A DNA stretch of 64,000 bases from Terebella lapidaria (lineage: Eukaryota; Annelida; Polychaeta; Terebellida; Terebellidae). Where the stretch lies: positions 26,659,462-26,723,461 of the forward strand of contig OX424557.1 of the NCBI GenBank assembly GCA_949152475.1. Direction: 5' to 3'. The notes under the pieces are model-generated. The model was not told the origin of the DNA, did not search any database, and worked only from the letters and a program-made list of their open reading frames with translations. The stretch's first letter is position 1. Every line of letters begins with the position of its first letter. The position numbers and the translations under genes are program-made. Shown here piece by piece: positions 14,423 to 60,750 of the stretch.

Positions 14423-15049
14423 GATTTACATATATTGTATTGCATACATATACAGCGGCGAGCCAGTTAGTTAATATATTCAGAATGCTAATTTTCTTCC
14501 AAACCGAAATCAGGACCCAAGTAGGATATGCTGCGCTCTAATACAATTCGATCACTAGCTGCATTTACTGTAATCCGTCTGCAATCTTTATCACAATTGA
14601 AAATATAAGAAAGCGCAGCATACGCTGTTTGGGCCGGAATGAATTGGTAAATAACTCACCACTTCGCTGGTTTCCTTTTTCATACACCGTATCCTGCTAC
14701 ACGAAATTTTGCAATTGTATCCAGCGAATAAGCGTTTATATCCAGAACATGCATTTATGTGTTGCATGAACCTGAATGTCACGGAGCTTTCCGTGGCAAG
14801 GTAAGCGCCCCTCTGGCAGCATTTGAGTTATTGAGAGAGAAAACAACTCAAAGGCACAATGCGAGTCCACAATATATGTATATCAAGGAGTTGTTTGTGA
14901 ACTCAACGACTGAGTATTTATGAGAGGGGTGTGTAAGGGTGGGGGTGGTGCATGGGGCTGGGGTTGTGTGGGAGGGAGAATCATGCACTATGTCGGATTC
15001 GCGCTCAGGGTTTTATCTGGGCGAATCACTCAACCTCGGTCATTATCCC
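14423..15049 (+). mobile_element. YR-family copy I, right part with decayed hairpin
   Basis: This continues the copy begun at 7640 after the 5.5 kb insertion. It shares GGATATGCTGCGC, TATCCAGC, GTCACGGAGCTTTCCGTGGCAAG and GAGAAAACAACTCAAAGGCACAATGCGAG with copy II (20.31-20.67 kb) and copy V (36.88-37.03 kb). A G-rich stretch (14920-14980) then leads into CATGCACTATGTCGGA and a shortened hairpin (14992-15049; GGATTCGC...GCGAATC, CTCGG, ATTATCC). The order of features matches the right ends of copies II, III and V. Confidence 0.7.
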
Positions 15050-16700
15050 ATACATAACTTGAAGAATTCTCCCTCAGGCACCCATAATGTCAGTTGTATT
15101 TGTGTTGCATTGTTCTGATCTATTCGTCTAATTAGTGAGCACATCCAGTTTGTGAACATTTTGACTCATTTTATACAACGTTCACTGATGATAGCTTGTA
15201 CAGTTCATCTGATTTTTATATACAACCGACATACAACAGTTAAAGATTGTCGACGATCTATCTGCCACTACGGTGTCATCATTGTTTTCTCGTTTGATTT
15301 GTGTTGTATACAATACCACACAGTTACCGGTATGTATAAATACCAACTTATTTTGACATTACCGTTAAAAGAGATTCCACTTATTCGCAAAGACGTTGGC
15401 CTGCCATTCAATTATATTATTAGTTGATATTCAACAGTGGAATAAAAACAATGTTACACGGTTACATGTCTATTTGTACTTCGGACGCTTGCGTAAACGT
15501 ACAAATTGGCCTGAATAAATTGGTTATAAACACTTGTTTTCAATCACATGGATTAGGCTGATTAATTCGTATCCGGCTCATCCCGATGTTTACGGTGTTT
15601 ATGTATATTACCCTCTCGCTGAGCGCCCTAGAACTATTGGAGTACTCTCCACTCAGACACTTCCGGAATTTAACCAATTTGTATGCATCATGCGCCTCAC
15701 TTGAGCATGTGGAGCTTTATTTTGTTCCGGGGTCGAAGAGACGTTCGCTGCTCGTAAAAATACTAATGCCAGTGCTGAAGCGATCTTTGCTGTAAACCTG
15801 CCAATTGCATGTGTCATTCACACACATATTGTCAGAAATAAACTCCATGGATACATACTTCATTCGTAATGATTCATATGTATATCTAATGAGCCTTTTG
15901 GCTTGTAATTAGGTATCTATGTACTTGTCAAGTATCTATTCCATGCGGTTTGTTTCTGATTTCTAAATTAGTTTATAGGTTGTTGGGCAGTTGTATGCTA
16001 ATTCCATCAGGTGTACAGGAGAAACAACTACATTTCACACACTTTCTGTCCCTGATGACACCAGTGTGTCTTTGGATAAGCTGCTTGGTCGGGCTTTGTT
16101 TCTATTGCATATATTGTAAGAATTTTACGTTTGCCTTTGGCATCATCAAAATCTAGTGTGGGTTGTAAAAGATTGATACTTACATACACAATTTGAAACC
16201 CGTTAAAATAAATAAACTTTCTAAGAGGCTGATCTGTATGAAGACATTCACGCTTAGCAAAAACAGTATATGTAGTGTGAATGCACATACAATACTTTGT
16301 CAATTATACACTGCAAAAAAGCAGATCTTCAAACTTTTTTTATTTGTTTCTCGTCAAACAGTGAACGAGATATCGCCTGATACCCATGGTTTATCTAGCG
16401 TGAATAAGTCTTTGTTAGAAATGCCTAAAAGTTAGTGGACACCTTCTTAGCTATCATGGCTATATATGACCAATTTGGGTATGAAAAACCATCAGTCAAA
16501 ATGATAAAAAAAAAATTGCTCTGTGTCCCATCAGATAATAATCAATAATAACACTAACCTTCGTGCTTGTCAAAACAACCTAACGGAATCCTCAGTTAGG
16601 ATCAACATACTATATTTTTGCAGTTCATTGAATACACCGACATTCTTAAATTGACAAAATAAGTCTCATAGTTATCTGGCTACCTTGGGGGAAAATATGT
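15050..16700. other. Intergenic DNA, paralogous in part to 54.2-55.1 kb
   Basis: No gene is seen. The stretch 15580-15840 resembles 54.34-54.61 kb (ATCCAATTTGTATGCATCAT-like word, CCAGTG, GCATGTGTCAT), and 16440-16500 resembles 54.99-55.03 kb (TATATATGACCAAT then GAAAAACCA). This suggests an old segmental copy. Part of it recurs inverted at 31.13-31.19 kb. Confidence 0.45.
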
Positions 16701-16711
16701 TCTTCTTCAGT

Positions 16712-17426
16712 TATAGTGCATGATTCCATTGTCTCGAGCAGGTATCTATTTGTAATAAATACCTCTGTGGGAGGTATTTATTTCCAATAAATACCTGTCC
16801 CAGGTATTGAATGAAAATAAATCAATACTGGTGGACACAGTAAACACACCGGGATTGTAATTTTTATTGCCAAGCATGGCATACAAGTATCAGACTTATA
16901 TTACTCGATGTACATAAACATGATAAACAGCTAATCGTTATGGTGTGCGATTTAATCCATGGGTCACAACAGTTTTGTGATTTTTTGGACACATGGTTCA
17001 TGAAATCATCCGCCTTCTGCAGAAATCCAGTGAAAACGTATATATCCACAATATCCTTGGAATTCCGGAGGTTTTGATAATAATCCTGCGATATTCCACA
17101 TCCGCAAATGTACCGGAATCCTAGAGAAGCTTCCAGAGATCACGCATAACGTAATTTCCTGCAAATATGAATGAAATATACAAGCATGAATGTTCGATTT
17201 TTCCTCTTCAAATCTAGTTTATAGCTATTCAGCATATGTATTATGGGAACAATTTGAACAGAACTTTCACTCCGCCATATAAATTAAATGCACGAATAGC
17301 ACATAAAAAAACTTTTACTTATCAGTCGTACGTTGAAGTCATGGATCAAACTTTATGATCGCCGTGTTGATTTTACGAAGAATTCTGTAAATAGGCCTAC
17401 ATGTGTACAAATTGTTTTTTTATTTT
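16712..17426 (+). mobile_element. YR-family copy II, left part
   Basis: It begins with TATAGTGCATGATT and three tandem palindromes (16740-16764 and 16772-16796 with AGGTAT..ATACCT arms; 16802-16829 with AGGTATTGA / TCAATACT arms). The third palindrome and its GACACAGTAAACACA flank match the left end of copy III (21.05-21.11 kb). A TTTTTATTG run near 16862 corresponds to the reverse-strand polyadenylation signal of copy III. The next 560 bp match copy I. At 17427 it is interrupted by AGGTTACCGG elements B and C and resumes at about 20067. Confidence 0.65.
16740..16829. repeat. Three tandem palindromes at the left end of copy II
   Basis: Palindromes 16740-16764, 16772-16796 and 16802-16829 share AGGTAT / ATACCT-type arms around AT-rich spacers of 8-11 bp. 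Their arms differ from those at 7.70 kb but the spacing is similar. Confidence 0.85.
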
Positions 17427-18814
17427 TAGGTTACCGGACCTATGGTCCGATTACCTATTGGCATGGCGTTGCGTCCGTCGTCTGTCGTCCGTCGTCGTCG
17501 TCAACATTTTTATCTTTTTTGTTTATGGGCGAATTTTTCTGAAATTTTGCACAAAAATACTTTAAAATAATTCAAGAAGGAGATATTTTTTAGTTTTTTG
17601 ATTTTCGCATTTTTTTCAAAATGGCGGCCGTTTTAGACGAAAAATGCCTGATTTTGGACTTTGGCGGCCATTTTCTCAAAATCTGTTCAGTAACTTTTTT
17701 TCTCTTTGATACATAACACTCCTCATATGTACTTCTATGATGTCTATAAATTTCGTTGCGCTTGAATCGCTCGAAGTGGGCCATTTTGGCCCAAACTCAG
17801 CCCAAATGGGACTTTCCCATGTTAAATTCTCCTATGCCTCATAATGGGACACATTATGCCTAATATCTCACTTAATATTGAGATTAGAGACTAGGAATCA
17901 ATTGTGGACATATAGGAAATGATATATCCTGAATATTCTCGTGACCTTGAATTTGACCTCTGACCTCAGTTTCAAGGTCAGAGCACAAAATGGCTTATAT
18001 CTTGCTTATTATTGATTCTACAGCTTAGGAATCAATTGTGGACATATAGGAAATGATATATGCTGAATATTCTGATGACCATGAATTTGACCTTTGACCC
18101 CATTTTCAAGGTCATAGGACAAAATGGCTTATATCTCGCTTATTATCGACTCTACATCTTAGGAATCAATTGTGGACATATAGGAAATGATATATGCTGA
18201 TTATTCTGATGACCTTAAATTTGACCTTTGACCCCATTTTCAAGGTCATAGGACAAAATAACTAATATCTCGCTTGTCATCGACTTTACGGCTTACGAAT
18301 CAGTTCTGAACATATAGGAAATGATATATGCAAATTATTGTCGTGACCTTGAATTTGACCTTTGACCTCATTTTCAAGGTCACAGGACAAAATGGCTAAT
18401 ATCTCACTTATTATCGATTTTACAGCTTAGGAATCAATTGTGGACATATAGGAAATGATATATGCTGAATATTCTCGAGACCTTGAATTTGACCTCTGAC
18501 CTCATTTTCAAGGTCCAAGTACAAACTGGCTCATATCTTGCTCCTCTATTGACTGTATGGCTTGGGAATCAATTGTGGACATATAGAAAAAGATATACAC
18601 TGAATATTTTGATGACCTCGAATTTGACCTTTTGCCTTCATTTTCAAGGCCACAGCACAAAATTGCCAATATCTCTCTGTTTTGAATTTACAGCTTAGCA
18701 ATCAACTGTGGACATGATATATGTTTAATATTATATATGCTGAATATTCTTTTGACCTTGACTTTAACCAGTGACCTGGCTAACATCTAAAATAATAAAC
18801 ATTGTCCGGTAACC
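17427..18814 (+). mobile_element. AGGTTACCGG-family element B with ~120 bp tandem array
   Basis: The 5' end is a hairpin (GGTTACCGGACC-TAT-GGTCCGATTACC) followed by a CGTCGTC-rich segment and a conserved 300 bp stretch (AAAATGGCGGCC, TTGGACTTTGGCGGCC). From about 17880 to 18760 about seven units of roughly 120 bp run in tandem: GGAATCAATTGTGGACATAT, GACCTTGAATTTGACC, TTTTCAAGGTCA. The 3' end is TTGTCCGGTAACCT plus a TTTGGCCCTTGGCCTAATTTTT tail. It inserts in copy II and abuts element C. Confidence 0.8.
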
Positions 18815-18835
18815 TATCTTTGGCCCTTGGCCTAA

Positions 18836-20093
18836 TTTTTAGGTTACCGGACCTATGGTCCGAAAACCTTTTGGCATGGCGTTGTGTCCGGCGTCCGTCC
18901 GTTTGTGCGGGCATACCAGAAGGGTTTACGGGGATTTCTTAGGGGGAATAATGCTGAAAATGCCCCACAACCACAGTTTAAGCCAAAAGTGTGGTTTTGT
19001 GGGGATTTTTTCAGGACTTACGGGGAAAGTTAAGATTTAACATTGGGTCCGCCCGTAACGCCCATCCGTTCGCACGTCCGTCCGTCCGTCGTCCGTCCAC
19101 ATTTTTATCTTTAAAGTTTACGGTCGAATCTTTCTGAAATTTTGCACAAAAATAGCTAAAAATTTTCCCAGGAAAGGGTTTTTTTCGTTTTTTGATTCTC
19201 GCATTTTCCTCAAAATGGTGGCCATTTTTGTTGAAAAGTGCCCAATTTTGGACTTTGACGGCCATTTTCTCAAAAACAGTTCAGACAGTTTTGAGATTTT
19301 TATTTCAAAAGATTCCCCTTATGGACTTCTGTGATGTGTATAAGTTTGGTTGCCCTTGAATCGCCGGTCTCCGTGAGGCGGCCATTTTGAATTTTTGACG
19401 AGTCGGCGAAAAAAAAAAATTTCGCCCCAAATCGCTTCACTATCCATTTTGGGCCATTTCTAGGCAAAAAAAATTTTTCACCCTTTGAAAAAGTTTTTGG
19501 ACTTAGAAATTTTTTGGCAATTTTTTCCTTCATAATGAGAGCTGCCAGAACTGTACTCATAGAACGCCTGAAGATAGAGCTTAGAAATTGGCACTTTCAA
19601 TTGGAAAGTCATATATGGCGACTTGTGTGGGGACCTTGAATTTGACCTTGGATGACCTTAAAAGGTCAAAACAGCCATTTCTGTGTCAAAAAATGCCCAG
19701 ATTTGCCTCTATAGATGAAATGCTTGCAGATAAGGCTTATGTTTGCATTATGAACATATAGGAAGACATATATGGCACAACTAATGTTGACCTTGAACTT
19801 GACCTCTGATGACCTTGAGTGCCAAATGTCTGACTGAGAATGTGTACATTGGCCTATACACTTGCACCCAGACGTATCTTTGTATTATGAACATATAGAA
19901 AGTCAAATACCGCACCCGTACATGTAATGGTGACATTGAAGTTCACATGGATGACCTTGATTGGTAAATCTCATGGTCATAATGTTCACACTGATAACCT
20001 TGATTGATAAATCTCAAGGTCTGTTACATTCCATTATCCAAACCAAAATTGTCCGGTAACCTATCTTAGCCTTTGGGCTAATTTTCTTATAAG
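18836..20093 (+). mobile_element. AGGTTACCGG-family element C
   Basis: It starts at TTTTTAGGTTACCGGACC directly after element B and ends with AATTGTCCGGTAACCTATC and the tail TTAGCCTTTGGGCTAATTTT. The 5' half matches B; the inner region has a different degenerate array (GACCTTGAA, TATGAACATATAGGAAG). The head-to-tail placement of B and C suggests insertion into a preferred site at the family's own end, or tandem duplication with later change of the interior. Confidence 0.8.
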
Positions 20094-21047
20094 GATTGAA
20101 AGAACGCATGATAAAGATATTTGTTCAGGCAAAAATTATGATTCAATTCTTTGTACACGGGTACAACCCGTTAGATAATTCAGAAGGAGAAAATGCTAAT
20201 TTTTTGAATTCACAAGAAATAAGTGATATACTCACCGGTTTACAAATCTGGCATGTTGTTCATGTACTGCATCTGGTTACACCAAAATTTTGAGTCATTC
20301 CCAAGTATAAGGAGCCCAAGTACCGTACGCTGCTCCTTAATACTACTCGTCCACTGAAAACATACCATTTAATCCGTCTCGCACCTTTTAATCCTTATTG
20401 AATATAGAGGAAGGCGCAGGATATGATATTTGGGCCGTATAGGGTTTTGCAACAGTATCCAACAAACAAGCGCGTCAGAACACGCGTTTATATCCGCATG
20501 CAGCGTATCCATGTGTTGCATTTTTCATCACGAAAAGTTGATGTCACGTAGCTTGCTGTTTCAAAGTGAGCGCGCATTTTGCCGCGTTTGTTTTTATAGG
20601 GTCCCATTTGAGCAATACTCACAAACGCGTTACTAGGGGGAGAAAACAGCTCAAAGGCACGGTGCGAGGCCACCAGAAACATACTGAATTGAAACCATGT
20701 ATACTGTAGCCATAACAACAGAGTGCGGGCTAGGGTTGAATGTACAAATCTATGAGCCGAGTCATGTGGGGAAGCAATTTCTGTAGCGAGTAAGCTTTCC
20801 TGACGGATACACTTGCTTGGGCGAGGACTGTGCGTTGCATTTGCAGTTTTGTTGTTTATATAGTGAATTACGTAAAGGGTATGTGATATGTTGTTTATGA
20901 ACCGAGTGTGTGAAGGGGGGGGGGGGGTGCATGCACTATGTCGGATAATGCCTACGGCTTCGTATTCCTCACGAATAGAAACCTCGGCCTTCGGCCTCGG
21001 TCTCTATTCGTGAGAAATACTCAGCCTAGGGCATTATCCTATACATA
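20094..21047 (+). mobile_element. YR-family copy II, right part
   Basis: This resumes copy II. It shares GTATCCA, GTTTATATCC, TTGCAT, GATGTCACG-AGCTT and GAGAAAACAGCTCAAAGGCAC with copy I right part and copy V, and GGATACACTTG-TTG with the right part of copy III (24.41 kb). A poly-G run (20913-20927) leads to TGCATGCACTATGTCGG and the hairpin at 20943-21039. The last 120 bp are identical to 24593-24712. Confidence 0.7.
20928..21047. repeat. 120 bp direct repeat with hairpin, left copy
   Basis: It holds TGCATGCACTATGTC, then a 97 bp hairpin (20943-21039): outer arms GGATAATGCC / GGGCATTATCC, middle arms CTCACGAATAG / CTATTCGTGAG, centre CTCGGCCTTCGGCCTCGG. The outer arms are not fully complementary between their ends. 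It is identical by eye to 24593-24712 and in the same direction, 3665 bp apart. The recombinase gene lies between the two copies. In position it is the right end of copy II and at the same time the left boundary of copy III. Confidence 0.9.
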
Positions 21048-21126
21048 AATACCTGCCCAAAGTATTGATTGAATTTAATAAGCCAATACTCAGGAGGCAA
21101 ATAAACACATTTTGAGTTTTCATTTT

Positions 21127-21132
21127 TTTATT
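21127..21132 (-). promoter_or_regulatory. Polyadenylation signal AATAAA of the recombinase gene
   Basis: Read on the minus strand, AATAAA lies 41 bases beyond the end of the recombinase coding region, a usual distance for a transposon gene with a short 3' UTR. Confidence 0.6.
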
Positions 21133-21172
21133 GCATATGTACACGTATAGCACCAACAGTATCATGGAATAC

Positions 21173-24100
21173 TCATGCAAAATGGAAATGGTGGTTGCTA
21201 CCAGATATATATATAATTGTGTTTGGTTTTGTTAATTTGGCGGGTGCGGCCTGTTCAGGATTTGATGTGTTGCCACCCTCGTTACTGATGTTGCCACGGT
21301 CTCCTAGCTGCTGTGGACTTGGTGTGTCGCCAGCATGGGACGTCTCTGCGCTCGTTTTACTCCCCGCAATCAGATCGGTGATGACACGTCTTTGTCCGTC
21401 AGAGACCCGCTTGTAGCGGTTGACCGCATCACTCCTGTGTCCTGTTTGACACGATATTAGAGATGTGTCTAGGTCTTGTTGGAAGAGTCGCGTCACCGTT
21501 GTGACCCTGAGACTGTGATTCGTGTACTGTCCTTGAAAGCCAGCAGCGGACATCATGGTTTTCGTCATATTTGATAATACGTTGTGTCCGATAACTTGCT
21601 TCCCGTACCACATACCCTTTGGTTTTGAAAGAGGCTTGAGATACAGAGCATTCTGGATAGCTTCGTTTGGGCAAACAGACACATATTTGCCAACAACATG
21701 GACAGGGCAACGTTGTTCCCTCGTTGAACAACAGCAGTAGGCTCGCGCAGAATGGCGTTCGACCTTGCGATGCTTTAGCCCTCCCTGATTTGTTTTCGAC
21801 GTACATTCGGTGTACTGAATGTATTCTTTACCCCCAACATCAGTGTGAAACGAGAAATTGGACTTGGTGAGCTTGCGGTGTTCCTCTCCCCCGCGTATTC
21901 CAAAATGCACACCAATGAGGTAGAACACAGTTCGTAACAGGTTCTCAGGGTTGCCAGTACCCAGCACTCCTTTGGCATAAAGATGATCTTCCTGATCCTC
22001 TGTGATGGGTTCCGCACTCTTTTTCGTCGCCCCCAGTCCCTCACGTGCTGATTCCTTCATAGTCACGTCTAGCGAGTAGTAGAGCAGTGGAAATTTGTCG
22101 ACATCGATTAATGTCAACTTGCGTCCGAGATATTTTTGGATTGACACAATTATCTCATGCTTCGTTTTGCCGGGATATTCCTCCCCATTCTTTTTTCGTA
22201 TTTGTGAAATGAAGTTACCAAGAACAATGCCCATGTCACAATTGTTCATCTCAATTAGAGAAGCGTTGTTTCGCAGAATACCATCGTACTTCTCTTTTCC
22301 TGGGGTGCTTAACCTCCAAGCCACCCAGTCCTCGAATATGTTATATGCCCATATAGCCTTCGATTTCGTCTTTGGTGGAATGGATTCGTGAATTAAGGTA
22401 TCCAAGCTCACCATCTCCCTGGGTTTAAATCGAGCAGAAGTCCCTGTTGAATTGAAAAAAAAGTTTTAAGCGATAGCCGACAACGAATAATGCTACACCT
22501 TGTAAAAATTGTTGAAACTATGTGATAAACATTTAAATTGCACTTCGTGACCTCATTTTTCAAGAAAATTAAGCCAAGGGCTAAGATAACTTACCGGACA
22601 ATTTTATTGCAGGTGACATATCACCTAAAGATTTAATTATTTTTTTTTTAGAAAAAAATAAATATAATAAAAATAGCTCCTTGAATTATTTCAAAGTAGT
22701 CCGCTCCAAACAATGGAGAGGAGGTCAAAGTGTTTTCAAAAATAACTATCAACATATTCTACAGCTTCAAAAGGACATATTTTATAGAGTAACTGTTTAG
22801 CGTGCTAAAACTGAAAAAAATAGGGGGGGGGGGGGGTCACCGTATCCGTTCGCATGAAAAACACGATAGAAGATGTGAATATGGAGTTTGAATATGAATT
22901 TGATGGAATATGTCGGATAAACCAGTACGGTAACCCCCTATTTTCTTTTCAGTATTAGGATGCAGATCAGTTACACTATAAAATATGTCATTTTGAAGAG
23001 ATAATATTGAAAAAATAACTTGAATTTTGACTCTTCCGTTACCTCACTGTTTGTAGCGGACTGACTATCACACCACAATTACTAACCATCAGCAGTTGAA
23101 GTCCCGACAACAGGAAGAAAGGTTGACGCACTGACTCCGGGCGTATCACGGAGATCCAATGAGCTTTTCATTCCGACGCCTGTCAAAAGCAAAAGGAGCA
23201 CATGTACAATCTAGTGGGCAATCCTGTTTCTCTATGATAATCAATGACAATGATGAGTTAATCAATGGCACAAAATGATAAATACAGATAAAAAGAACAC
23301 CTGATTTGTAATAAATAGGCCTAACACTTTTCTATCATAACCAATTGTCATTCTATCATAACCAATTGTCATTCCGGATACTAAGTATGGGAAATTAGTT
23401 AGTAATAAAATTGCCCACGTTATTGTACATCCTAGCCTTATTGTTTTTCTGGTTGATGCAATCCATATATTTAATATAATACACATCGCTTTTATATTTG
23501 AATTTCAGAAAGGATCGGTAAACATGGCTGACTATCACACCCCTATTACTCACCATCAGCAGTTGAAGTTCCGACAACAGGAAGAAAGGTTGACGCACTG
23601 ACTCCGGGCGTATCACGAAGATCCAATGAGCTTTTCATACCGCCGCCTGTCAAGAGCAGAATATAATTGTAATTGCGCCTGACTAGTTTATAGTGACAGT
23701 GTACAATTTGAATGCCTAAAAAGGTGCTAACCGATAAAACCGCAATATTGCAATAGTCGGATGCATTCCAGGTGGGTTTTTTTTCAACGACAATATTCAG
23801 AACCCATCAATATTTCGCAAATTCTTACCGTCAGCTGGTCTCGTTCGTCTGTACGCAGACAAAATTGATGCTCCACCAAGTTCCGGCATGCTAGTGACAT
23901 CAACCGACGTTAACATTGTATCATAAATTTCTTCTTCGGATACTTGTAGACTTTGCGCCGCATTATGAACTTCCGTCTCTTCCAAAACCATTCTATCGAA
24001 TTCTGCAAGGGCGTCCGTGAGCACGTGGTCCCGTGACATTGAACAAAGGCCACTCCCGTTCGTCGCTTCTGCCTCCGAAATATCTTCAGTTTCTGGACAG

Positions 24101-24219
24101 TATACATCTACTTTAGAAATCAAACTATAAATGCCGTCGTCACTGTCACTGGATGAAAATACAGTTCTGAAAGAACTTTGTGTTAGAAATACGTCCTCGT
24201 CGCTCTCAGTTTCCGCCAT
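21173..24219 (-). CDS. Crypton-like tyrosine recombinase, four exons
   Basis: Exons in transcript order are 24219-23829, 23646-23554, 23179-23087 and 22443-21173, each with GT and AG borders and phase 1 throughout. They join to a 615-residue protein with no internal stop. Exon 1 encodes an acidic, Ser/Asp-rich N-terminus (MAETESDEDVFLTQSS). Exons 2 and 3 are 93 nt near-copies encoding MKSSLDLRDTPGVSASTF. Exon 4 encodes the DUF3504-type YR domain. In exon-4 numbering from its first Met, the catalytic set is R174 (GIRGGEE), H300 and R303 (NHSLRVT), H326 (TGHRS) and Y334 (NRYKRV); a CCC...C-x-V-H cluster near 227-239 may bind zinc. A low-complexity tail follows. The family cuts and joins DNA through a Tyr-DNA link; Cryptons move without reverse transcriptase. 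All catalytic residues are present, so it may be active. Vertebrate KIAA1958 and ZMYM proteins descend from such genes. Confidence 0.85.
22559..22697 (-). mobile_element. AGGTTACCGG-family fragment D
   Basis: In reverse it shows the family's 3' tail (AAATTAAGCCAAGGGCTAAG, TTACCGGACAATTTT) followed directly by a short piece matching element A (CTCCTTGAATTATTT). Most of the element is missing. It lies in the last intron of the recombinase gene, immediately beside the 365 bp TIR element. Confidence 0.65.
22698..23062. mobile_element. 365 bp TIR element (AGTCCGCTCCAAACA ends)
   Basis: The ends are inverted: AGTCCGCTCCAAACA on the left and TGTTTGTAGCGGACT on the right. Imperfect complementarity continues inward for about 140 bp, as far as AAAATAGGGGGG / CCCCCCTATTTT. 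A poly-G run lies at 22824-22837. It is non-coding and sits in the intron between recombinase exons 3 and 4. A truncated relative starts at about 51302. Confidence 0.75.
23060..23190 (-). repeat. Duplicated exon block, copy b (exon 3)
   Basis: This 130 bp block, exon 3 plus its splice borders, is about 95% identical to 23520-23657, which holds exon 2. Both have phase-1 borders, so adding or skipping either keeps the reading frame. Confidence 0.85.
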
Positions 24220-24592
24220 AATTGTACGTTGTTCGCGTGAACGTCAAACGAGGAAATGACTGAAATCTATTCCGAAACATTCTTTGGACGTGAACATAAT
24301 TTTATGTATGTTCTCAGGTAGTGTACAACCGCGAGCTGAGCTCCGAGAAAACACATGGAGAGATAAACTGTGTGAGTGAGTAAAACATACAATGTTGTCC
24401 TGATGGATACACTTGATTGAGCAATGCTCGCGCCCCGTACATGTGCGTGTTTTTTTCTGTATGTATTGTTGGATACACTTGATTGAACAAAGTTCGCACC
24501 ATGTAAATGTGTGATTTTCTGTAGGCTATGAAATATTTTCATGACACAGAATATAGGGAGGGGGGAGAAACAGAATGTGGGTAGGGGGGAGT

Positions 24593-24712
24593 TGCATGCA
24601 CTATGTCGGATAATGCCTACGGCTTCGTATTCCTCACGAATAGAAACCTCGGCCTTCGGCCTCGGTCTCTATTCGTGAGAAATACTCAGCCTAGGGCATT
24701 ATCCTATACATA
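24593..24712. repeat. 120 bp direct repeat with hairpin, right copy
   Basis: It is identical by eye to 20928-21047, including TGCATGCACTATGTC and the 97 bp hairpin (24608-24704). The flanking bases differ on both sides apart from G-richness on the left. As the right boundary of copy III it fits an attachment-site-like duplication. Confidence 0.9.
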
Positions 24713-24787
24713 TTAATAGTATCGACTGCTGCGGAAATCACTGGAGCGTGGCGCGCTGACGAACCAATAGAGCCAGTAGCTAAAACA

Positions 24788-24880
24788 GTTATCCGTTTCG
24801 TGCTCGGTGCATGTCAAATTATAAACCACGCCGCGGCTCGGTTCATAATTTTGACATGCACCTCGCACTCAGTAGATAAC
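24788..24880. repeat. 93 bp nested hairpin (H4)
   Basis: Arms GGTGCATGTCAAATTAT and ATAATTTTGACATGCACC enclose a GC-rich centre (CCACGCCGCGGCTCGG). Outer ends GTTATCC and GATAAC pair only partly. CTCG occurs three times in the same direction (24804, 24837, 24862). Size and plan match the other ~95 bp hairpins, but the stem sequence is unrelated. Confidence 0.85.
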
Positions 24881-24886
24881 TATTAC

Positions 24887-24965
24887 CAGAAATACATAAC
24901 GAGAGATGTATTTCTGCTATTACATAAACTAATGTTTGTTCTGACAATCACTGCATTAGTGATTG
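24887..24965. repeat. Two short palindromes after hairpin H4
   Basis: The palindromes are 24887-24916 (CAGAAATACAT / ATGTATTTCTG arms, 8 bp spacer) and 24945-24965 (CAATCACT / AGTGATTG arms, 5 bp spacer). With H4 they form a series of three like those at 7.70 and 16.74 kb, so this may be the left end of a further family member whose right end I did not find. Confidence 0.7.
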
Positions 24966-25602
24966 TGTAGCATTTGCCATTTCAGAAACACAATTTCAGA
25001 GTGTTATAACCTTCGCCACCTTCACTCCATAAATATACATGAATTTTGACAGTAATAGGTTGATACACATCTCACCGTCAGCATATCAACAATGTCGTTC
25101 TAACAAATGAACGTTGAAAACCATTCCTTTGGCGCTTTTATTGTGAACATTTTCAATTAGTGATGATTTTCCAATCAGTGATGTAGTGGCATATCCCAGG
25201 TCACTTTACTCCATATGATGTAATGATTTAACATAGTTATGTTGGTAGCTCATCTTAAATTTATGTAATACGAATGTAAATAAAGTATTTAGAATTGGTA
25301 ACATTCGTTGTATCTCTATTTCATAATACATATATGTCTGTCACTATTGTATGGCGAATGCATTATCTGATCCGTGGTACAAACCGGAAGTCTCATTCCA
25401 TCAAACCTGATGAAACCAGAAATGTATATTCTATTGAGAACCTGGAAAACCTCTACTATGTACAAATATATAAGTAGAAAGGGAGTAAAATTTCCGAATG
25501 AGACAACAAATTGCGCAAACACAATTTAGTTGACATGTTGCTGCCATGCTGTTTAGCTCTTTGATAGTCAGCATCTGAGCTCGCAACAATGAACGAGCTT
25601 AC
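24966..25602. other. Unrecognised DNA
   Basis: AT-rich sequence without a recognisable gene, repeat or palindrome. Confidence 0.4.
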
Positions 25603-35635: not shown

Positions 35636-35659
35636 CCTTTGAGAGCTGCATTATGTATA

Positions 35660-35754
35660 GGATAATCGGTGAAGTGGAGCGACTCTGGAAAATAATCGAC
35701 GAGCCGAAGGCGAGTCTATTATTTTCCAGAGACGCGACACTGAACCGATTATCC
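35660..35754. repeat. 95 bp nested hairpin (H3)
   Basis: Preceded by TGCATTATGTATA, close to the TGCACTATGTC before the other hairpins. Outer ends GGATAATCGG / CCGATTATCC; inner arms CTCTGGAAAATAAT / ATTATTTTCCAGAG; centre CGAGCCGAAGGCGAG. On the reverse strand its outer 22 bp at each end match hairpin H2 (37380-37476), but the inner stem does not. Confidence 0.9.
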
Positions 35755-35757
35755 GAC

Positions 35758-36237
35758 TTAGTTCTCGGTTCCCCCTCAACTCAACTAAATCTCCGCCAGC
35801 TATCTAATAGTGTAAAGGCTCACACAGAGGATCGTATAAAAGCTACGAGTAGAGCCTTTTATGCTTTACAGGGTGCGGGCGTCTGTAAGGGGGGCGTTCA
35901 GTCGGACACTATGACCCATATCTACAACACGGCTATACGCCCCGTCCTGACGTATGGACTCCAGTCGACCTACCAGAGTAAGGCTGCTATTGACGACGCG
36001 GACAAACTACAGGCCAAGTTGCTCAAAAGTGCGCTGGGTCTTAACCGGTCCTGTAAGAACACACCTATTCTGGATGCCCTGAGAATCCCACGGATAGCAG
36101 CGAGTGTTGGCGTCCAGGAGATGCTCTTGTTTAGGTCGATGTTGGTGTCTCAGTCTCGTACAAATAGTTTTTATACGTTTTTATTGTCAAAGTATCTGAA
36201 AGGGATGTATGTTAGCCCAAAGTGCTTATTGTCACGT
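35758..36237 (+). mobile_element. LINE ORF2 fragment, first part
   Basis: The open frame gives RIKATSRAFYALQGAG, then IYNTAIRPVLTYGLQS and ADKLQAKLLKSALGLNRS, PILDALRIPRIAASV. This is the usual region after the reverse transcriptase palm of non-LTR elements (RP-LTYG and LQ-K-LGL). It starts at hairpin H3 with the upstream palm absent, and is split at 36238 by a 1.25 kb YR-family element. It continues at 37484 in the same sense. Confidence 0.8.
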
Positions 36238-37483
36238 GTAATTTAGTACACGGTTCTATTGTCCTATGCAATCGACTATTTTTCAGAATCCAAATTGTGA
36301 ATATATCTGCCAGAAATCTCCAGATCATATTCGCAAACATTTCACACATTTCCTGCAAATATACAGAATGTACAAGCCTATGAAACATTAAGTGCTTAGT
36401 TCGTCATTTTGAATATAACGTAATATTAATGGTGCCTATTTGGCGGCATATTTACATTGTCGAATAAATAGCGCAAAGTAAAAAATACACCTTCTCACCT
36501 GTATATGATGGATCGTATATATCGTGGCCAGGGATGGACCTTTTCAACCAGTCTTGAATCCACGCAAAATTCTGCCATAGATAAATCGTATATCTTGAAA
36601 CGAATTAAAGGATGCAGAATATTCATATCCATTTTATATTGACTTTAAGGCTACCGCATTTTGGTGCAGAAAGTAAAAGAATGTTATCTCTTTTGAACCT
36701 TCAATTAAATCAGTTTAGTAAATGACTCACCTGTTTGCCGATATGTGCTCGCATCATTTTTTTAGGTTCTTCCAATGAATGCCGTTTTAAATAAATAAAT
36801 GCCGTTTTAAATACTCAAGTAGCATTTTCCTGGTACTTTATAGGCTCCCGCTTTGAAATCCAATTGTACTATCCAAATGCTTCATTCCGACATCACGGAG
36901 CTCTCCCAGTGAGCTTTCTGTGGCAAAAGAGAGCGCGTGTGTTGTCGTGTTTCCTTTTATACTGCTTCATTCGAGTAATTCTCACAACCATATGAAAAGA
37001 GGCGAAAACGACTGAACACGCATTGCGAATCAACTAAAAAACTATTCAATCGGAACGGTGTAAACTGTAGTCATAACAACAGGAAGCTCTGTCGTATTTA
37101 GCTAACCATGCAAATATCAGAGTTGAGTGGAATGTAAATATCAATCTATATATTACCACCAATACAGCCGTGATGTTGGTTCCACTTGACTGCATAAATG
37201 AGAACAAAATTACTGAAAATCTTGGGACAAATATTGCGCACCATCGGAGGCATATGTCAAATAGCTTGGTCAAGGAATTCAACCATCCGAGACGGCCGTA
37301 TATTTGTTTGCATGTAGGTTTGTGTGTGTGTGTGTGGGGGGGGGGGGGGAGTTGTTCACTGGAGACCGTGTACTAAGTGGGATAATCGGTTCAGTGTCGC
37401 GCACCTTCGAAATAATGTACTCGGCCTTCGGCCTCGTACATTATTTCGAAAAGGCGCTCCACTTCACCGATTATCCCTTACGT
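36238..37483 (+). mobile_element. YR-family copy V, inserted in a LINE (1,246 bp, non-autonomous)
   Basis: ACGT occurs at both borders (36234-36237 and 37480-37483), and the LINE frame resumes in phase after it, so both ends are defined. The left end (GTACACGGTTCTATTG, CTATTTTTCAGAATC) recurs inverted at 45.12-45.17 kb. The middle (36880-37070) shares CACGGAGCT, GTGGCAA, GAGAGCGCG and the CATAACAACAG word with copies I and II. The right end has (TG)n and poly-G (37321-37350), then hairpin H2. No protein is encoded; it could be moved only in trans. Confidence 0.8.
37380..37476. repeat. 97 bp nested hairpin (H2)
   Basis: Outer ends GGATAATCGGT / ACCGATTATCC (one unpaired base) continue into unlike 11 bp segments. 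Inner arms CGAAATAATGTA / TACATTATTTCG surround CTCGGCCTTCGGCCTCG. It forms the right end of copy V. Confidence 0.9.
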
Positions 37484-37702
37484 AATAAATATGCGTTGAC
37501 CCTCTGTAAGCTTATCTGTGATAAATCTTATGTTAGAACCGTCAAGCGGTCAGTAGTACGTTTTTCTACTGACGACGGTGTGGTGGATACACTCAGGTTT
37601 TTATCTCACACGCATCAAAGACGCCAAAATTGCTGTATAAAATTTTTTATTGGTCACGATGGGACTTTCAACATGTCAAAGGGGAAACCCCCCGCACAAT
37701 GA
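37484..37702 (+). mobile_element. LINE ORF2 fragment, second part
   Basis: It continues the LINE frame after copy V: NKYALTLCKLICDKSYV, VKRSVVRFSTDDGVVDTL, RRQNCCIKFFIGHDG. The 3' end is not clear. Confidence 0.6.
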
Positions 37703-38167: not shown

Positions 38168-39160
38168 TTAAGGGATGTGCACTTGAGAGGGTTTAATGTA
38201 TTGGTTGTAAGCATTTGATCTCCAACGCCCGGCAAGTGCAATGCGAGAGGGTGGACAGCCCTTCTGGGCGAGGTCTGTGGTCTTGCCAATCCTAAAGGAG
38301 TGAGTATTGAAAGATGTGTGGTTGTATCCACTGAGGATGAGGTGTTTGTGTAGTGAGCGTGCCAGGAACTGACGGGTAAGGGGGGCACCGTTGGTATGGC
38401 AAAAGGCTGTTGGGGCAGATTTCGGCCTAAGTGCGGTGTAGCGGGAGTAGGCTGTAACTGGGCATGTACCTGTGTTGGTGGAATGAACAACCAGTTTGGG
38501 TGTGTGGTGTTGGCTGTGTTTGTAGGTCTTGAAAGATATGACGAGTTGGTTGGGTCTGAGCTTTAGTTGCTTTGGTTTCAGGTTATGTTGGGTATGAGGA
38601 GTGAAGCAGGTTTCACTTGACCGTAGAGCTGCATGGAACATGAGGGTGAATACTGACATGAGGAGGACTCGAGTGTATTTGTTGCTGGTGTGTCTGCGGA
38701 CTGACCTCAAAAGGTTCAAAAGGATGGAAGATGTGATGGGTTTTCTAGTTCGAGGTGCAGGGTCTGATTTAGTGTATGCTGTTAGGAGGCGCTTGATCAG
38801 GAGGGATTTGGTGGGGTTGGGGTGTCCAGAGATTTCATGGAGGAAGCCAACAGAGGAGAGGTGTGTTTTGATGGTGGAGGCTTTCAGGTTCATCGAGTGG
38901 AGGTGCTTAATTGGAGTGGTGACGTCAGGAACTGGGTTTGGAGGTGCGAGGGAGTGAAGTATTGTTGGTGGTGGTGTGGGGTGCTGCTGGCGCTTTGCCG
39001 GCATGCCCTGGTGTGGAGGATGTGGAGCATGGTCGGAACAGTGGGTGTCTTGCATTGCAACGTGGGCACCTGTGTTTGTACTGGCAGTCGACACGTTCAC
39101 AGCGTGCTGTTTTGGAATGGAAATCAAAGCAGAACCCCCTGGGAATCGAGGTTCCGTCAT
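38168..39160 (-). mobile_element. YR domain part of the DIRS/Ngaro-like element
   Basis: The region shows a tyrosine recombinase core: a LRSSE segment supplies the first Arg, HSFRIG the HxxR pair, and AGRWRSNAY the last Trp/His position and the probable nucleophile Tyr. The HSFRIG and GRW wording is that of DIRS/Ngaro and XerD-like recombinases of metazoan elements, and differs from the NHSLR and GHRS of the Crypton-like gene at 21 kb. The two recombinases in this window therefore come from separate lineages. Confidence 0.85.
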
Positions 39161-40957
39161 GGGATTGAAAACTTGGCTTCGCCTGAGAGTTGCATGACGG
39201 CCGAAAAGTTGGAGGGATGGGGTGGGAGGAGGTGCGTTTCAGGAGGCTGTACTGAAGGTACAAGTCTTGCCGGATAGTGTTCCAGGCGCAGTAGACAACC
39301 TCGCGGTCCCTCCTGAAATGGCAGTCGTAACCGTACCAATCAAAGCCCTGTTTGTGCATGGCGTTGACGTGCTTCTTGTAGGTGAGTAGTGCACGTGTGA
39401 GGCGGATGGCTGATGAGGATGAGTGAGATTGTTCAATGATGATGGACATATAAATTTCGAAAGCTTCGTGCCGCTGGCTGATTGTGAGGTCTTTTTTCTG
39501 TTTGTTTTTAACTAGCATGGTGGAGTTGTTTTTTCCTGATTTGAAAGTAAATTCATCTTGATGTTGGGTGTGTGGGGTGGGAGGGAAGGATACTAAGATC
39601 AATGTATTTGTCGGCCAGGATTTTGGACTTGGTTTTAGTGTTGACGGAGCTGCCTACCACTGCCCCGAAGGAGACCACTGGTGGTTCGAAGTCAGTCTCG
39701 GTGTCGGAGGAAGCCGACTGGTAGGGCTTACCTCGGGGCTGGGGCCGCTGGGACGAGGATGATGCGGAGCTGTGGCGGTGGCGGCGTTTCGGGGTGTTTC
39801 GTGCCCTTGGTCGAGACTGGTGGGATGAGCTGGGTGGCGGTGTCGTGTCATGCTCCCCAAAGGATGAGTAGTCGGAGGACACCTCTCTGGCGCGATCATG
39901 TTGCCTGCGTGATGGCTGGTGTCGGTTAGCGGCCCGTTGGCGTGGTGCCTTGTCAGTCAGGATAGGATCATCTGAGTCTTCATCAGCAGAGTCGTCCATC
40001 AGCCGTTGTCGACTGCGTGGTGGGAGAGAGGAATACGGCGAGGTTAGGCGTGATCGTTTTTTGGCTGAGGTTGTCGACTGTTGGCATTTGGCTGTGCCTG
40101 ATGTGGAGGGTGATGACTTGGGCAGACCATTGGCGGCGTTCCTCGGCCAACTTCTGCCTGAGATTTTTTATTTCAGACAGCATCTGTTTAGGGTCTGGTG
40201 GAGGATGAGATGAAAGTGGGTCTCCAGGCTGTCTGGTGCTGGAGTCCGAGGAGTCATGGTTGTCTGGGTGGGCCGAACCCGGGGGGTCGGGATTGTTCCG
40301 GTTGGTTTTACGTGTCCGCCCCATGGAGGTGACGGACTGGATGAGTATTGGTGCGCTTAGGCGTCAAAACAGGTGGGCATGTACCACTGCGTGGAGTTAG
40401 GCCTCACCTAGGCATGTATGGAAACACCCTGAGGGCAAAAGGGAGAAAACCCCTGAGGGGCAGGCCAGGTCTGTAGCCGGACAATGGTCAATGGAACGCA
40501 GGTGGGTCCAGAAAGGAACGGCTTAGGAAACGACCTCACCTGGAAAACAGCAGAATATGCGAAAGGAGAGATGACTGTTGGTTATCAGTATACATTGACA
40601 ATAGCAAGCAAATGTTGGGCCCAACAGTGGTAGGTACTACTAAATAATAGTCAGAATGTCAGAGATTGTCTGTTAACGGGCCCATACTGCCATGTAACTT
40701 GGAATACTGGTGAGTAACTCTTTTGAACTAGAAATTGGCAGTAGGTTGCGCCAGGACCCTCTATTTTTAGGTGTCCTGGGCTAAAATATAGGCAGAAAGA
40801 TTGAGTGAGCATGATGCTGCTGGGTACCTGTCTGGCTTTATTGCCGGCACGCCCTGTGCCTGTGGAACAGGATTGCGTGTCTCAGAGGAGCGGTGTAGAT
40901 CCTGGCGCCCTCAGTGCTGTTACAGTGGATGCCATCCGTGGTCCACCACGGATTAGG
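38375..40957. repeat. 2.58 kb tandem duplication, unit 1
   Basis: It is nearly identical to 40958-43540 (offset 2583 bp; I found about two base differences). GGGTAAGG is present at both sides of the join. It holds Gag-like and YR material of the DIRS-like element. Confidence 0.9.
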
Positions 40958-43540
40958 GGTAAGGGGGGCACCGTTGGTATGGCAAAAGGCTGTTGGGGCA
41001 GATTTCGGCCTAAGTGCGGTGTAGCGGGAGTAGGCTGTAACTGGGCATGTACCTGTGTTGGTGGAATGAACAACCAGTTTGGGTGTGTGGTGTTGGCTGT
41101 GTTTGTAGGTCTTGAAAGATATGACGAGTTGGTTGGGTCTGAGCTTTAGTTGCTTTGGTTTCAGGTTATGTTGGGTATGAGGAGTGAAGCAGGTTTCACT
41201 TGACCGTAGAGCTGCATGGAACATGAGGGTGAATACTGACATGAGGAGGACTCGAGTGTATTTGTTGCTGGTGTGTCTGCGGACTGACCTCAAAAGGTTC
41301 AAAAGGATGGAAGATGTGATGGGTTTTCTAGTTCGAGGTGCAGGGTCTGATTTAGTGTATGCTGTTAGGAGGCGCTTGATCAGGAGGGATTTGGTGGGGT
41401 TGGGGTGTCCAGAGATTTCATGGAGGAAGCCAACAGAGGAGAGGTGTGTTTTGATGGTGGAGGCTTTCAGGTTCATCGAGTGGAGGTGCTTAATTGGAGT
41501 GGTGACGTCAGGAACTGGGTTTGGAGGTGCGAGGGAGTGAAGTATTGTTGGTGGTGGTGTGGGGTGCTGCTGGCGCTTTGCCGGCATGCCCTGGTGTGGA
41601 GGATGTGGAGCATGGTCGGAACAGTGGGTGTCTTGCATTGCAACGTGGGCACCTGTGTTTGTACTGGCAGTCGACACGTTCACAGCGTGCTGTTTTGGAA
41701 TGGAAATCAAAGCAGAACCCCCTGGGAATCGAGGTTCCGTCATGGGATTGAAAACTTGGCTTCGCCTGAGAGTTGCATGACGGCCGAAAAGTTGGAGGGA
41801 TGGGGTGGGAGGAGGTGCGTTTCAGGAGGCTGTACTGAAGGTACAAGTCTTGCCGGATAGTGTTCCAGGCGCAGTAGACAACCTCGCGGTCCCTCCTGAA
41901 ATGGCAGTCGTAACCGTACCAATCAAAGCCCTGTTTGTGCATGGCGTTGACGTGCTTCTTGTAGGTGAGTAGTGCACGTATGAGGCGGATGGCTGATGAG
42001 GATGAGTGAGATTGTTCAATGATGATGGACATATAAATTTCGAAAGCTTCGTGCCGCTGGCTGATTGTGAGGTCTTTTTTCTGTTTGTTTTTAACTAGCA
42101 TGGTGGAGTTGTTTTTTCCTGATTTGAAAGTAAATTCATCTTGATGTTGGGTGTGTGGGGTGGGGGGGAAGGATACTAAGATCAATGTATTTGTCGGCCA
42201 GGATTTTGGACTTGGTTTTAGTGTTGACGGAGCTGCCTACCACTGCCCCGAAGGAGACCACTGGTGGTTCGAAGTCAGTCTCGGTGTCGGAGGAAGCCGA
42301 CTGGTAGGGCTTACCTCGGGGCTGGGGCCGCTGGGACGAGGATGATGCGGAGCTGTGGCGGTGGCGGCGTTTCGGGGTGTTTCGTGCCCTTGGTCGAGAC
42401 TGGTGGGATGAGCTGGGTGGCGGTGTCGTGTCATGCTCCCCAAAGGATGAGTAGTCGGAGGACACCTCTCTGGCGCGATCATGTTGCCTGCGTGATGGCT
42501 GGTGTCGGTTAGCGGCCCGTTGGCGTGGTGCCTTGTCAGTCAGGATAGGATCATCTGAGTCTTCATCAGCAGAGTCGTCCATCAGCCGTTGTCGACTGCG
42601 TGGTGGGAGAGAGGAATACGGCGAGGTTAGGCGTGATCGTTTTTTGGCTGAGGTTGTCGACTGTTGGCATTTGGCTGTGCCTGATGTGGAGGGTGATGAC
42701 TTGGGCAGACCATTGGCGGCGTTCCTCGGCCAACTTCTGCCTGAGATTTTTTATTTCAGACAGCATCTGTTTAGGGTCTGGTGGAGGATGAGATGAAAGT
42801 GGGTCTCCAGGCTGTCTGGTGCTGGAGTCCGAGGAGTCATGGTTGTCTGGGTGGGCCGAACCCGGGGGGTCGGGATTGTTCCGGTTGGTTTTACGTGTCC
42901 GCCCCATGGAGGTGACGGACTGGATGAGTATTGGTGCGCTTAGGCGTCAAAACAGGTGGGCATGTACCACTGCGTGGAGTTAGGCCTCACCTAGGCATGT
43001 ATGGAAACACCCTGAGGGCAAAAGGGAGAAAACCCCTGAGGGGCAGGCCAGGTCTGTAGCCGGACAATGGTCAATGGAACGCAGGTGGGTCCAGAAAGGA
43101 ACGGCTTAGGAAACGACCTCACCTGGAAAACAGCAGAATATGCGAAAGGAGAGATGACTGTTGGTTATCAGTATACATTGACAATAGCAAGCAAATGTTG
43201 GGCCCAACAGTGGTAGGTACTACTAAATAATAGTCAGAATGTCAGAGATTGTCTGTTAACGGGCCCATACTGCCATGTAACTTGGAATACTGGTGAGTAA
43301 CTCTTTTGAACTAGAAATTGGCAGTAGGTTGCGCCAGGACCCTCTATTTTTAGGTGTCCTGGGCTAAAATATAGGCAGAAAGATTGAGTGAGCATGATGC
43401 TGCTGGGTACCTGTCTGGCTTTATTGCCGGCACGCCCTGTGCCTGTGGAACAGGATTGCGTGTCTCAGAGGAGCGGTGTAGATCCTGGCGCCCTCAGTGC
43501 TGTTACAGTGGATGCCATCCGTGGTCCACCACGGATTAGG
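40958..43540. repeat. 2.58 kb tandem duplication, unit 2
   Basis: The second unit of the head-to-tail duplication. Such close identity means a very recent event, continued homogenisation, or an unresolved haplotype or assembly duplication. Confidence 0.9.
41508..42907 (-). mobile_element. Gag-like part of the DIRS/Ngaro-like element
   Basis: It has a basic, Ser/Arg-rich first half, then an ADKYIDLSIL-type segment and a conserved helical region (ISQRHEAFEIYMSIIIEQ, FDWYGYDCHFRR). It ends in Cys/His fingers GFCFDFHSKTARCERVDC, YKHRCPRCNARHP. This domain order is common in Gag-like proteins of metazoan YR retroelements. A second, almost identical copy occupies 38925-40324. Confidence 0.7.
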
Positions 43541-59640: not shown

Positions 59641-60027
59641 ACAATAAATACTATTATCATATGCCAGAATGATAGTCAAGATAAATAACGGAATTAGTGC
59701 TATCATACAGTAATCTAAATTACTGTCAACAAACTTAGATCTAAGCACTCCGTTTTTATGTATTTTGTTTTTCGAGAGCTTTGCCCATTTTGCCAATAAC
59801 AAACTTCTGCCCGGCGGGCCAAAAATTCCACACTCTGCCTGGGCAGCTCCACTTCAAGAAAACGTCATTTTCGAAGAGTAAACAAAAGCACATGGTCGCT
59901 TCACTGGCTTGAATCCGTCATGTATGATGTTTCTGCCGCCAATTTACGTTTTTTGCAAGTGGTCTCGGACCTCTGAAATGGCGTGTGAATCAGATCAAGG
60001 TGTGAATAAAATGACAAAACTAGGTGA
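59641..60027. other. Spacer between block and hairpin
   Basis: No feature recognised. Confidence 0.35.
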
Positions 60028-60166
60028 GTGTGTTTTCCAGCACGCGGGAAAGATCGAGTTTGAACTGGCGGAAGAATACAAGAGAGCACGAGACCGAAGG
60101 TCGAGTGCTTTCTGGTGTTCTTCCGCCAGTTCAAACGAGATCTTTCCCGCGTGCTGGAAAACACAC
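60028..60166. repeat. 139 bp long-stem hairpin (H6)
   Basis: Arms of about 48 bp (GTGTGTTTTCCAGCACGCGG to TGGCGGAAGAA and its complement) pair almost perfectly. The one clear exception is a CGAG that has the same direction in both arms. The loop holds an inner hairpin GCACGAGACCGAAGGTCGAGTGC, again CGAG-n-CCGAAGG-n-CGAG. Confidence 0.95.
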
Positions 60167-60750
60167 GAAACAGGTTTTGTTTTTATCACATGCTATGAAT
60201 TTATGATTCTGAAATATTTGAAAACCCAACACATGTAAAGTAAAGTGAAATTGTATCAGAGATTGCAAGAACTTCTTACAATCTTTGATTGCACTCAAGG
60301 ACCCTCTACTCATGAGTAGAAGACCCTTGAACATATGCGTTGCTAGGAAACAGTATAAATAATGCAGATCAGCCGGTCGCCAAATACTTTGTATTATGAC
60401 GTCACAGTGGTTGTACGTTTTCTGCATGGTTATATGTTACTAAGGCTGAATCGCGCGAAGTTTCATTGTTACGTCATAGAACACTCGTGCTTTCATTGTT
60501 GTTTCACATAAAGAGAAGTGCATGTGAATATATGTGAAATGTGAAGCAAAAATGTGAAGAAAAAATAGTGCAAACATGATGTTTCCAGCAAAGGTTATCA
60601 CACTGTCGGAAATCACTGTGTGTTCCTACTGTTTGTAGTTTGAGCTAAATTCATAGCATGTGATAAAGCTGTATTTCTTTCGATTCCGAGATGATTCGGC
60701 CACTTAAAACATAATAAAATGTCCCTAACTTCCACTGGCATATGATAAAC

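Follow-up and report, generated by a model that had tools for sequence, protein, structure and literature searches.

Organization of the Locus

The window analysed here is a stretch of 64,000 nucleotides (nt) on contig OX424557.1 of Terebella lapidaria (GCA_949152475.1), and it contains a transposable element with a tyrosine recombinase gene that lies between two identical hairpins; this element and its relatives have been followed through 761.6 Mb of searched genome. The element, copy III, is Crypton-like, occupies positions 21048-24712 on the plus strand and directly follows an older, non-autonomous member of its family. The latter, copy II (16716-21047, plus strand), begins with GTGCATGATT after TTATA, is interrupted by nested repeats at about 17.4-20.1 kb and closes with a right-end hairpin of 120 bp at 20928-21047 (plus strand), which at the same time forms the insertion border of copy III. 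Copy III closes with its own 120-bp hairpin at 24593-24712 (plus strand), which terminates in ...GGCATTATCC TATACATA. The initial annotation had assigned the left repeat to the right end of copy II and had placed the insertion of copy III beside the hairpin of this older member; both statements are borne out, with the left end of copy II now placed at 16716. It had also recognized the recombinase element correctly, but had drawn it from one hairpin to the other, and the span has been corrected to 21048-24712, the left hairpin belonging to copy II.

Direct comparison of 20928-21047 with 24593-24712 has shown the two repeats to be identical over 120/120 bp and in the same orientation, as annotated. 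Identity continuing beyond the 120 bp, which had been named as a sign of segmental duplication, has been checked as well: the match ends at the very first outside base on both flanks, and an ungapped extension to 129 bp is still 98% identical because G-runs precede both repeats on the left. Each repeat is a single long hairpin with arms of 47 nt. Serving as the regular right end of a transposon family, the exact 120-bp sequence is found at no fewer than 40 genomic places (of 414 candidates 40 were scored, each 100% identical; 41 further matches were made up of the palindrome matching itself on the reverse strand in 40 cases and of one match of 74%), and its 98-bp core is present 157 times in the genome at ≤3 mismatches. 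Among 11 elements not selected by the exact hairpin, the hairpin has been found to be the most conserved 120-bp stretch, with 98.7% pairwise identity versus 88.6-96.7% for the remaining 120-bp stretches within the element, of which one overlaps the hairpin. The identity of the two copies is therefore unremarkable and, taken alone, no mark of a recombination event.

The Recombinase Gene and Its Relatives

Copy III holds two open reading frames (ORFs) of at least 120 amino acids (aa) and one more nested in the first, and Pfam has been run on the two. The longer one is the open main exon of a tyrosine recombinase (21173-22414, minus strand, 413 aa) and matches DUF3504 (PF12012, 2e-27), QRICH1 (2.8e-8) and, weakly, Phage_integrase (22.8 bits, under the cut-off of 27.1); the other, of 140 aa (23797-24219, minus strand), has no Pfam match and is possibly the first exon of the same gene. 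In an alignment of nine sequences R174, R303 and H326 are invariant, H300 of the H300-x-x-R303 motif is present except in L029 and the following tyrosine except in L039, so that by their sequences the recombinases of L029 and L039 may be defective. A structure model with a mean predicted local distance difference test (pLDDT) score of 70 is nearest to QRICH1 and Cre (Foldseek E-value to Cre 8.5e-8), the integrase IntI (2a3v) appears among the weaker fold matches at rank 42, and a search of solved structures by sequence has returned only QRICH1, at an E-value of 0.02. The DUF3504 match, the catalytic residues and the Cre-like predicted fold uphold the annotation of a tyrosine-recombinase element, and the gene is a Crypton-type tyrosine recombinase. 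Within its region a 134-bp stretch is doubled (23061-23194 and 23528-23661, 93%), which is likely an exon copy. A second and different Phage_integrase-like ORF (PF00589, 28.1 bits) is found at 38168-39160 on the minus strand, inside an apparent tandem duplication of ~2.6 kb in which 38374-38673 is repeated exactly at 40957-41256.

Twelve recombinase loci have been examined (the window, L014, L029-L033, L036-L039 and L048), and the right-end hairpin is present in nine of them; in L030 and L031 the stretch homologous to L029 is interrupted, with the right end lying outside the coverage. The left end has been located in ten (copy III of the window, L014, L029-L033 and L036-L038, by a 13/17 match in L038 and an 11/17 match in L037), and nine of these have no hairpin on the left. 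Because copy III of the window is the only one of the ten with a left hairpin, the two direct repeats do not represent attL and attR, and by the same count the hairpin has been rejected as a two-sided boundary of the recombinase element. The annotated att-like repeat of 120 bp, produced by integration, is thus not supported, and the refuting condition that the annotation itself had named, a lack of paired hairpins in the majority of other full-length copies, holds for this claim: each copy carries its own right-end hairpin, and the repeat at a normal insertion is ATA or CATA only.

Element Ends, Targets and the Border of Copy III

The anatomy of the family has been derived from 20 stretches retrieved around exact hairpins. 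Members begin with GTGCATGATT... and close with the hairpin; 28/31 measure 1.4-1.8 kb, and those examined have one hairpin each, at the right end, which finishes with TATACATA in elements that were chosen by a matching hairpin. The three bases ahead of the left end are ATA in 31/31 elements, eight of which stand behind another hairpin end; the ordinary targets, not behind a hairpin, have shown ATA in 23/23 and CATA in 11/23 cases. What is repeated when an element inserts normally is this ATA alone, often CATA, which with 3-4 bp is slightly below the published 4-6 bp of Cryptons. When the flanks of 20 elements were joined, related empty sites were obtained for L014, L015, L016, L017 and L018 and a weak one for L028; those of L014, L016 and L018 contain a single ATA, and those of L015, L017 and L028 are diverged within the ATA. 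Judged from these alignments, an insertion adds the element and one extra ATA, with no visible loss of target. The target on C8 reads, in the related empty site, TATATATA joined to GTGTACG; it resembles the predicted circle junction and fits the model set out below, as a single case. The family left end (e.g., 16725-16811) also forms an imperfect stem of ~80-90 bp from AATAAATACCT repeats. The absence of the family from contig C10 has been rejected as meaningful, C10 being only 1.3 Mb long.

Copy III is 98.6% identical to its sister copy on C8 (L014:4091-7770), the 3.75-kb form with the recombinase gene. This sister has one hairpin only, on the right side, a complete left end that starts GTGCATGATTCTATTG and is preceded by ...TATGTATA, and a left side free of hairpins. 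Copy III, by comparison, lacks the first 74 bp of the left end and begins further inside, at AATACC, where it abuts the hairpin of copy II; its left border, TATACATA joined to AATACC, is therefore not canonical. Exact CATTATCCTATACATAAATACCTG has been found once in the genome search, in the window, and the AATACCTG border has given 13 matches at ≤3 mismatches versus 2 in a control. Three of these besides the window have been inspected (L040, L041 and L042): L040 and L041 were discarded as unrelated flank that shares the first eight bases only, and in L042 the same shortened left end (ATA followed by AATACCTG...) stands behind the hairpin of a different family. Copy III is explained either by a deletion between ATA repeats or by an internal ATA that served as the left border. 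That the border was formed directly, by recombination at the internal ATA and not by a later 74-bp deletion, we regard as quite plausible without favoring it: the identical shortened left end in L042 speaks for it, although the cases are two only and ATA microhomology would account for a deletion equally well. To the right of copy III, from 24713 onward, the DNA belongs to a dispersed repeat; among its scored copies many begin within a few bases of 24710, and copies II and III therefore sit at the edge of another repeat.

Conservation of the Hairpin Plan

In recombinase copies at 57, 46, 45, 44, 37 and 35% identity the hairpin stems differ, yet a common plan is kept that consists of a foot, a GGATA-like box, a long stem, a TATCC-like box and a TATACATA-like tail, from which L038 departs most. 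At the left end the foot of the hairpin recurs in inverted form, and both sequences have been found to change together across the families, as seen in the left end/foot pairs GTGCATGATT/TGCATGCAC, GTTCATGACT/ATCATGAAC, TTAATGCATC/GATGCATTAA and TTATTTACTGGCTC/GAGCCAGTAAATAA; a TC(T/C)ATTGT motif comes next in 7/8 hairpin families with a located left end, the exception being L033. Twelve hairpins have been compared, among them the two related ones at 35.7 and 37.4 kb of the window and five not linked to a recombinase gene, with the degenerate hairpin of copy I left out. On the bottom strand all 12 possess a GA/GA internal loop and a GNA or GNNA tip (GAA, GTA, GTCA), separated by a perfect stem of 2-6 bp with a variable sequence, and in 11 of them this strand is more stable than the top strand when DNA energies are applied. 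Palindromes with arms ≥30 in the DNA examined number 92, of which 48 bear the GA/GA-tip motif, 36 sharing one sequence; the 44 others are, by their centres, mostly the family left-end stem (32) and other repeats. Taken together, these comparisons show that the hairpin is conserved as a structure.

Such a structure could be read on a folded single strand, or the active form could be a duplex, a cruciform or an RNA such as a 5' leader of the recombinase transcript, an explanation that we hold to be plausible if somewhat doubtful. Long palindromes in general can be extruded as cruciforms, and the hairpin is located upstream of the recombinase gene, on its sense strand. This explanation is opposed by the gene-less, non-autonomous members, which retain the hairpin, and by the strand specificity of the conserved unpaired positions, i.e., GA/GA and GNA on the bottom strand. 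According to excerpts of the literature (PMC6479982), GNA triloops form unusually stable minihairpins in DNA. The only Rfam match at E ≤ 1 in 20000-25000 is a microRNA model with 23.2 bits versus a gathering score of 200, and an RNA family identity has been rejected on this basis.

The two further hairpins of the window just named face in opposite directions within 35652-37486. One closes an element at 36243-37486 (plus strand, exact borders inferred) with the left end TTAGTACACGGT..., the foot ACCGTGTACTAA and a hairpin at 37379-37477, left end and foot being inverted over 12 bp; the other is a hairpin end at 35652-35760 on the minus strand, which ends CCTATACATA. Giant hairpins at 59992-60202 and L025:7935-8131 resemble each other in having arms of ~100, GA/GA and a GAA tip and no TATCC/ATA feet; they are possibly the ends of another hairpin element.

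Insertion at the Family's Own Ends

Junctions of a hairpin end with a left end have been found 43 times at ≤3 mismatches versus 0 in a reversed-pattern control, the less exact ones being weaker evidence. Among 100 listed exact left ends (208 were counted), ten abut another hairpin end, as judged by comparing the coordinates by eye: three at C1:17.74 Mb (one duplicated array), one on C3, two on C4, one on C7, one on C9 and two on C15, with one additional weak coincidence at C13:4.21 Mb. Random insertion at ATA would give ~1 in 100,000, as calculated from 362 family right ends (≤1 mismatch) and ~3.8e7 ATA sites, a number estimated from the DNA examined. The junctions on C3 and at C4:8.24 Mb follow variant hairpin ends outside the 362; since two of the ten thus lie behind an uncounted variant, the true expectation is somewhat higher, yet far below 10%. 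The preference for the family's own ends, which had been proposed from the three copies of the window, is thereby substantiated. A variant of the end, ...TATCCCATACATA, whose hairpin is short and imperfect, is found at 14986-15056 of the window, in L040 and in L027, where it is an insertion border; the window instance is the degenerate right end of copy I (plus strand, CACTATGTCGGAT ... ATTATCCCATACATA).

Repeats and arrays could alternatively stem from duplication, either tandem or segmental, or from hairpin gene conversion, an origin which we consider improbable. Gene conversion could also explain why the hairpin is the most conserved stretch, and duplication has taken place in the array L034 (C1:17737600-17747400), whose units are 98-99% alike and whose inner repeats of ~1 kb are a real local duplication. 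Against this origin stand the abrupt end of the repeat identity beyond 120 bp and the body of copy III, which aligns with L014 and not with copy II. In all five complete two-element pairs compared (L011, L043, L044, L045 and L047) the neighbors are 86.3-94.3% identical, less than each member is to its closer relative elsewhere (90.5-98.9%), although one member of L044 is barely closer to its relative elsewhere (94.7%) than to its neighbor (94.3%). As the neighbors are less alike than copies elsewhere, the tested pairs therefore arose by separate insertions onto existing ends. Moreover, some junctions unite different families (L013, L027, L039 and L042). Tandem duplication, which the initial annotation had kept as the alternative, is consequently rejected as the general cause of the arrays by the five pairs and retained for L034.

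A Model for Movement

From these observations we consider it probable that the window contains members of a Crypton-like family that have a right-end hairpin of ~100-120 nt and a left end equal to the inverted foot, move as a circle and land on resident hairpins. In this model the right and left ends would meet when the element circularizes, and the joined ends would rebuild a folded site in the order foot, spacer, box, hairpin, box, TATACATA and left end, in which the foot would pair with the left end. The recombinase would then exchange strands between the ATA of the circle and the ATA of the target, and a resident hairpin end would be the favored partner at integration because half of the site is already present there. 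The 120-bp pair of the window would consist of the resident hairpin of copy II and the hairpin brought by copy III, whose missing 74 bp would reflect either of the two routes described above.

Several points weigh against this interpretation. The circle, the strand exchange at ATA and the single-strand use are predictions from the sequence, as is the action of the recombinase on these ends, and neither a circle nor an excision product nor a polymorphic empty site has come to light in the genome sequence. The junction of copy III is itself non-canonical, and the joined flanks of copies II and III have given no empty site, matching the two flanks separately and copies of the dispersed repeat. 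One of the twelve loci, L048, with a recombinase of 33% identity, has no hairpin in the 3.6 kb retrieved, and the feature may therefore belong to a clade and not to all such genes. For the arrays, the local duplication in L034 counts here as well, and a sixth pair, L046, was not judged, as its second member is without a matching hairpin. More far-reaching is the idea that an animal-type Crypton recombinase uses the folded, single-stranded hairpin like attC, prefers resident hairpins and builds cassette-like arrays, with the GA pairs and GNA tips serving as recognition marks; we put it forward tentatively and hold it to be rather unlikely.

Comparison With Known Systems

Cryptons are little understood DNA transposons. 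As far as described in excerpts of Kojima and Jurka (2011; PMC3212892), they have neither terminal inverted repeats nor long direct repeats, and those of animals are without terminal repeats. The elements reported here, with the inverted copy of the foot and the long hairpin, depart from this description, which is descriptive and not mechanistic. They share with CryptonA, in the same excerpts, a tyrosine recombinase of the DUF3504 type and many non-autonomous members, and probably also the restriction to this one enzyme and a short direct repeat at the ends, but differ in the right-end hairpin of ~100 nt, the inverted left end, the ATA targets and the arrays at their own ends. No hairpin-ended Crypton has been met among the top-ranked literature matches, a scope that does not extend to subscription papers and Repbase. 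With the ends, the target core and the partner site defined, excision and integration can be assayed and the elements recognized by structure.

An origin as Helitron- or Helentron-type rolling-circle elements, with arrays from failed termination and the recombinase gene as a passenger, is very improbable, since the likeness to Helentrons, HINE and DINE-1 in subterminal inverted repeats (12-15 bp in Helentrons and DINE-1), a 3' stem loop and autonomous and short forms (PMC4067079, in excerpts) is outweighed by their different enzyme, their insertion within TT or, in the wider Helentron/Helitron group, within TT or AT and with no target repeat, versus ATA in all 23 ordinary targets, their palindrome of 5-10 bp versus ~100 nt here, the same recombinase type at the same place and orientation in several diverged copies, array neighbors that are not copies of one another, and a Pfam search of five window ORFs that gave no Rep/helicase match (the genome as a whole was not searched for such a protein with these ends).

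Close parallels in layout are found in integron cassettes and their attC sites (PMC2727003, in excerpts). Both systems have a tyrosine recombinase, and in both each unit has a single hairpin site, placed at the same end, and the remainder of the site at the other; both also have an R''-L''...L'-R' layout with a partly unpaired spacer and units in head-to-tail series. By this analogy the joined ends would form an attC-like palindrome, and the hairpin would be used as a folded single strand, as in attC, where the recombinase acts on the bottom strand only. In contrast to cassettes, the units described here bear their own recombinase or none and are mostly inserted at plain, dispersed ATA targets; tandem GA pairs take the place of the extrahelical bases of attC, and the protein is not specially close to IntI. 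An attI platform has not been seen at the dispersed ATA insertions, where no attI search was made. We thus regard the elements as a Crypton variant that may work like integron cassettes, without claiming integron identity; if the hairpin is indeed used as a folded single strand, they would represent a eukaryotic counterpart of integron recombination.

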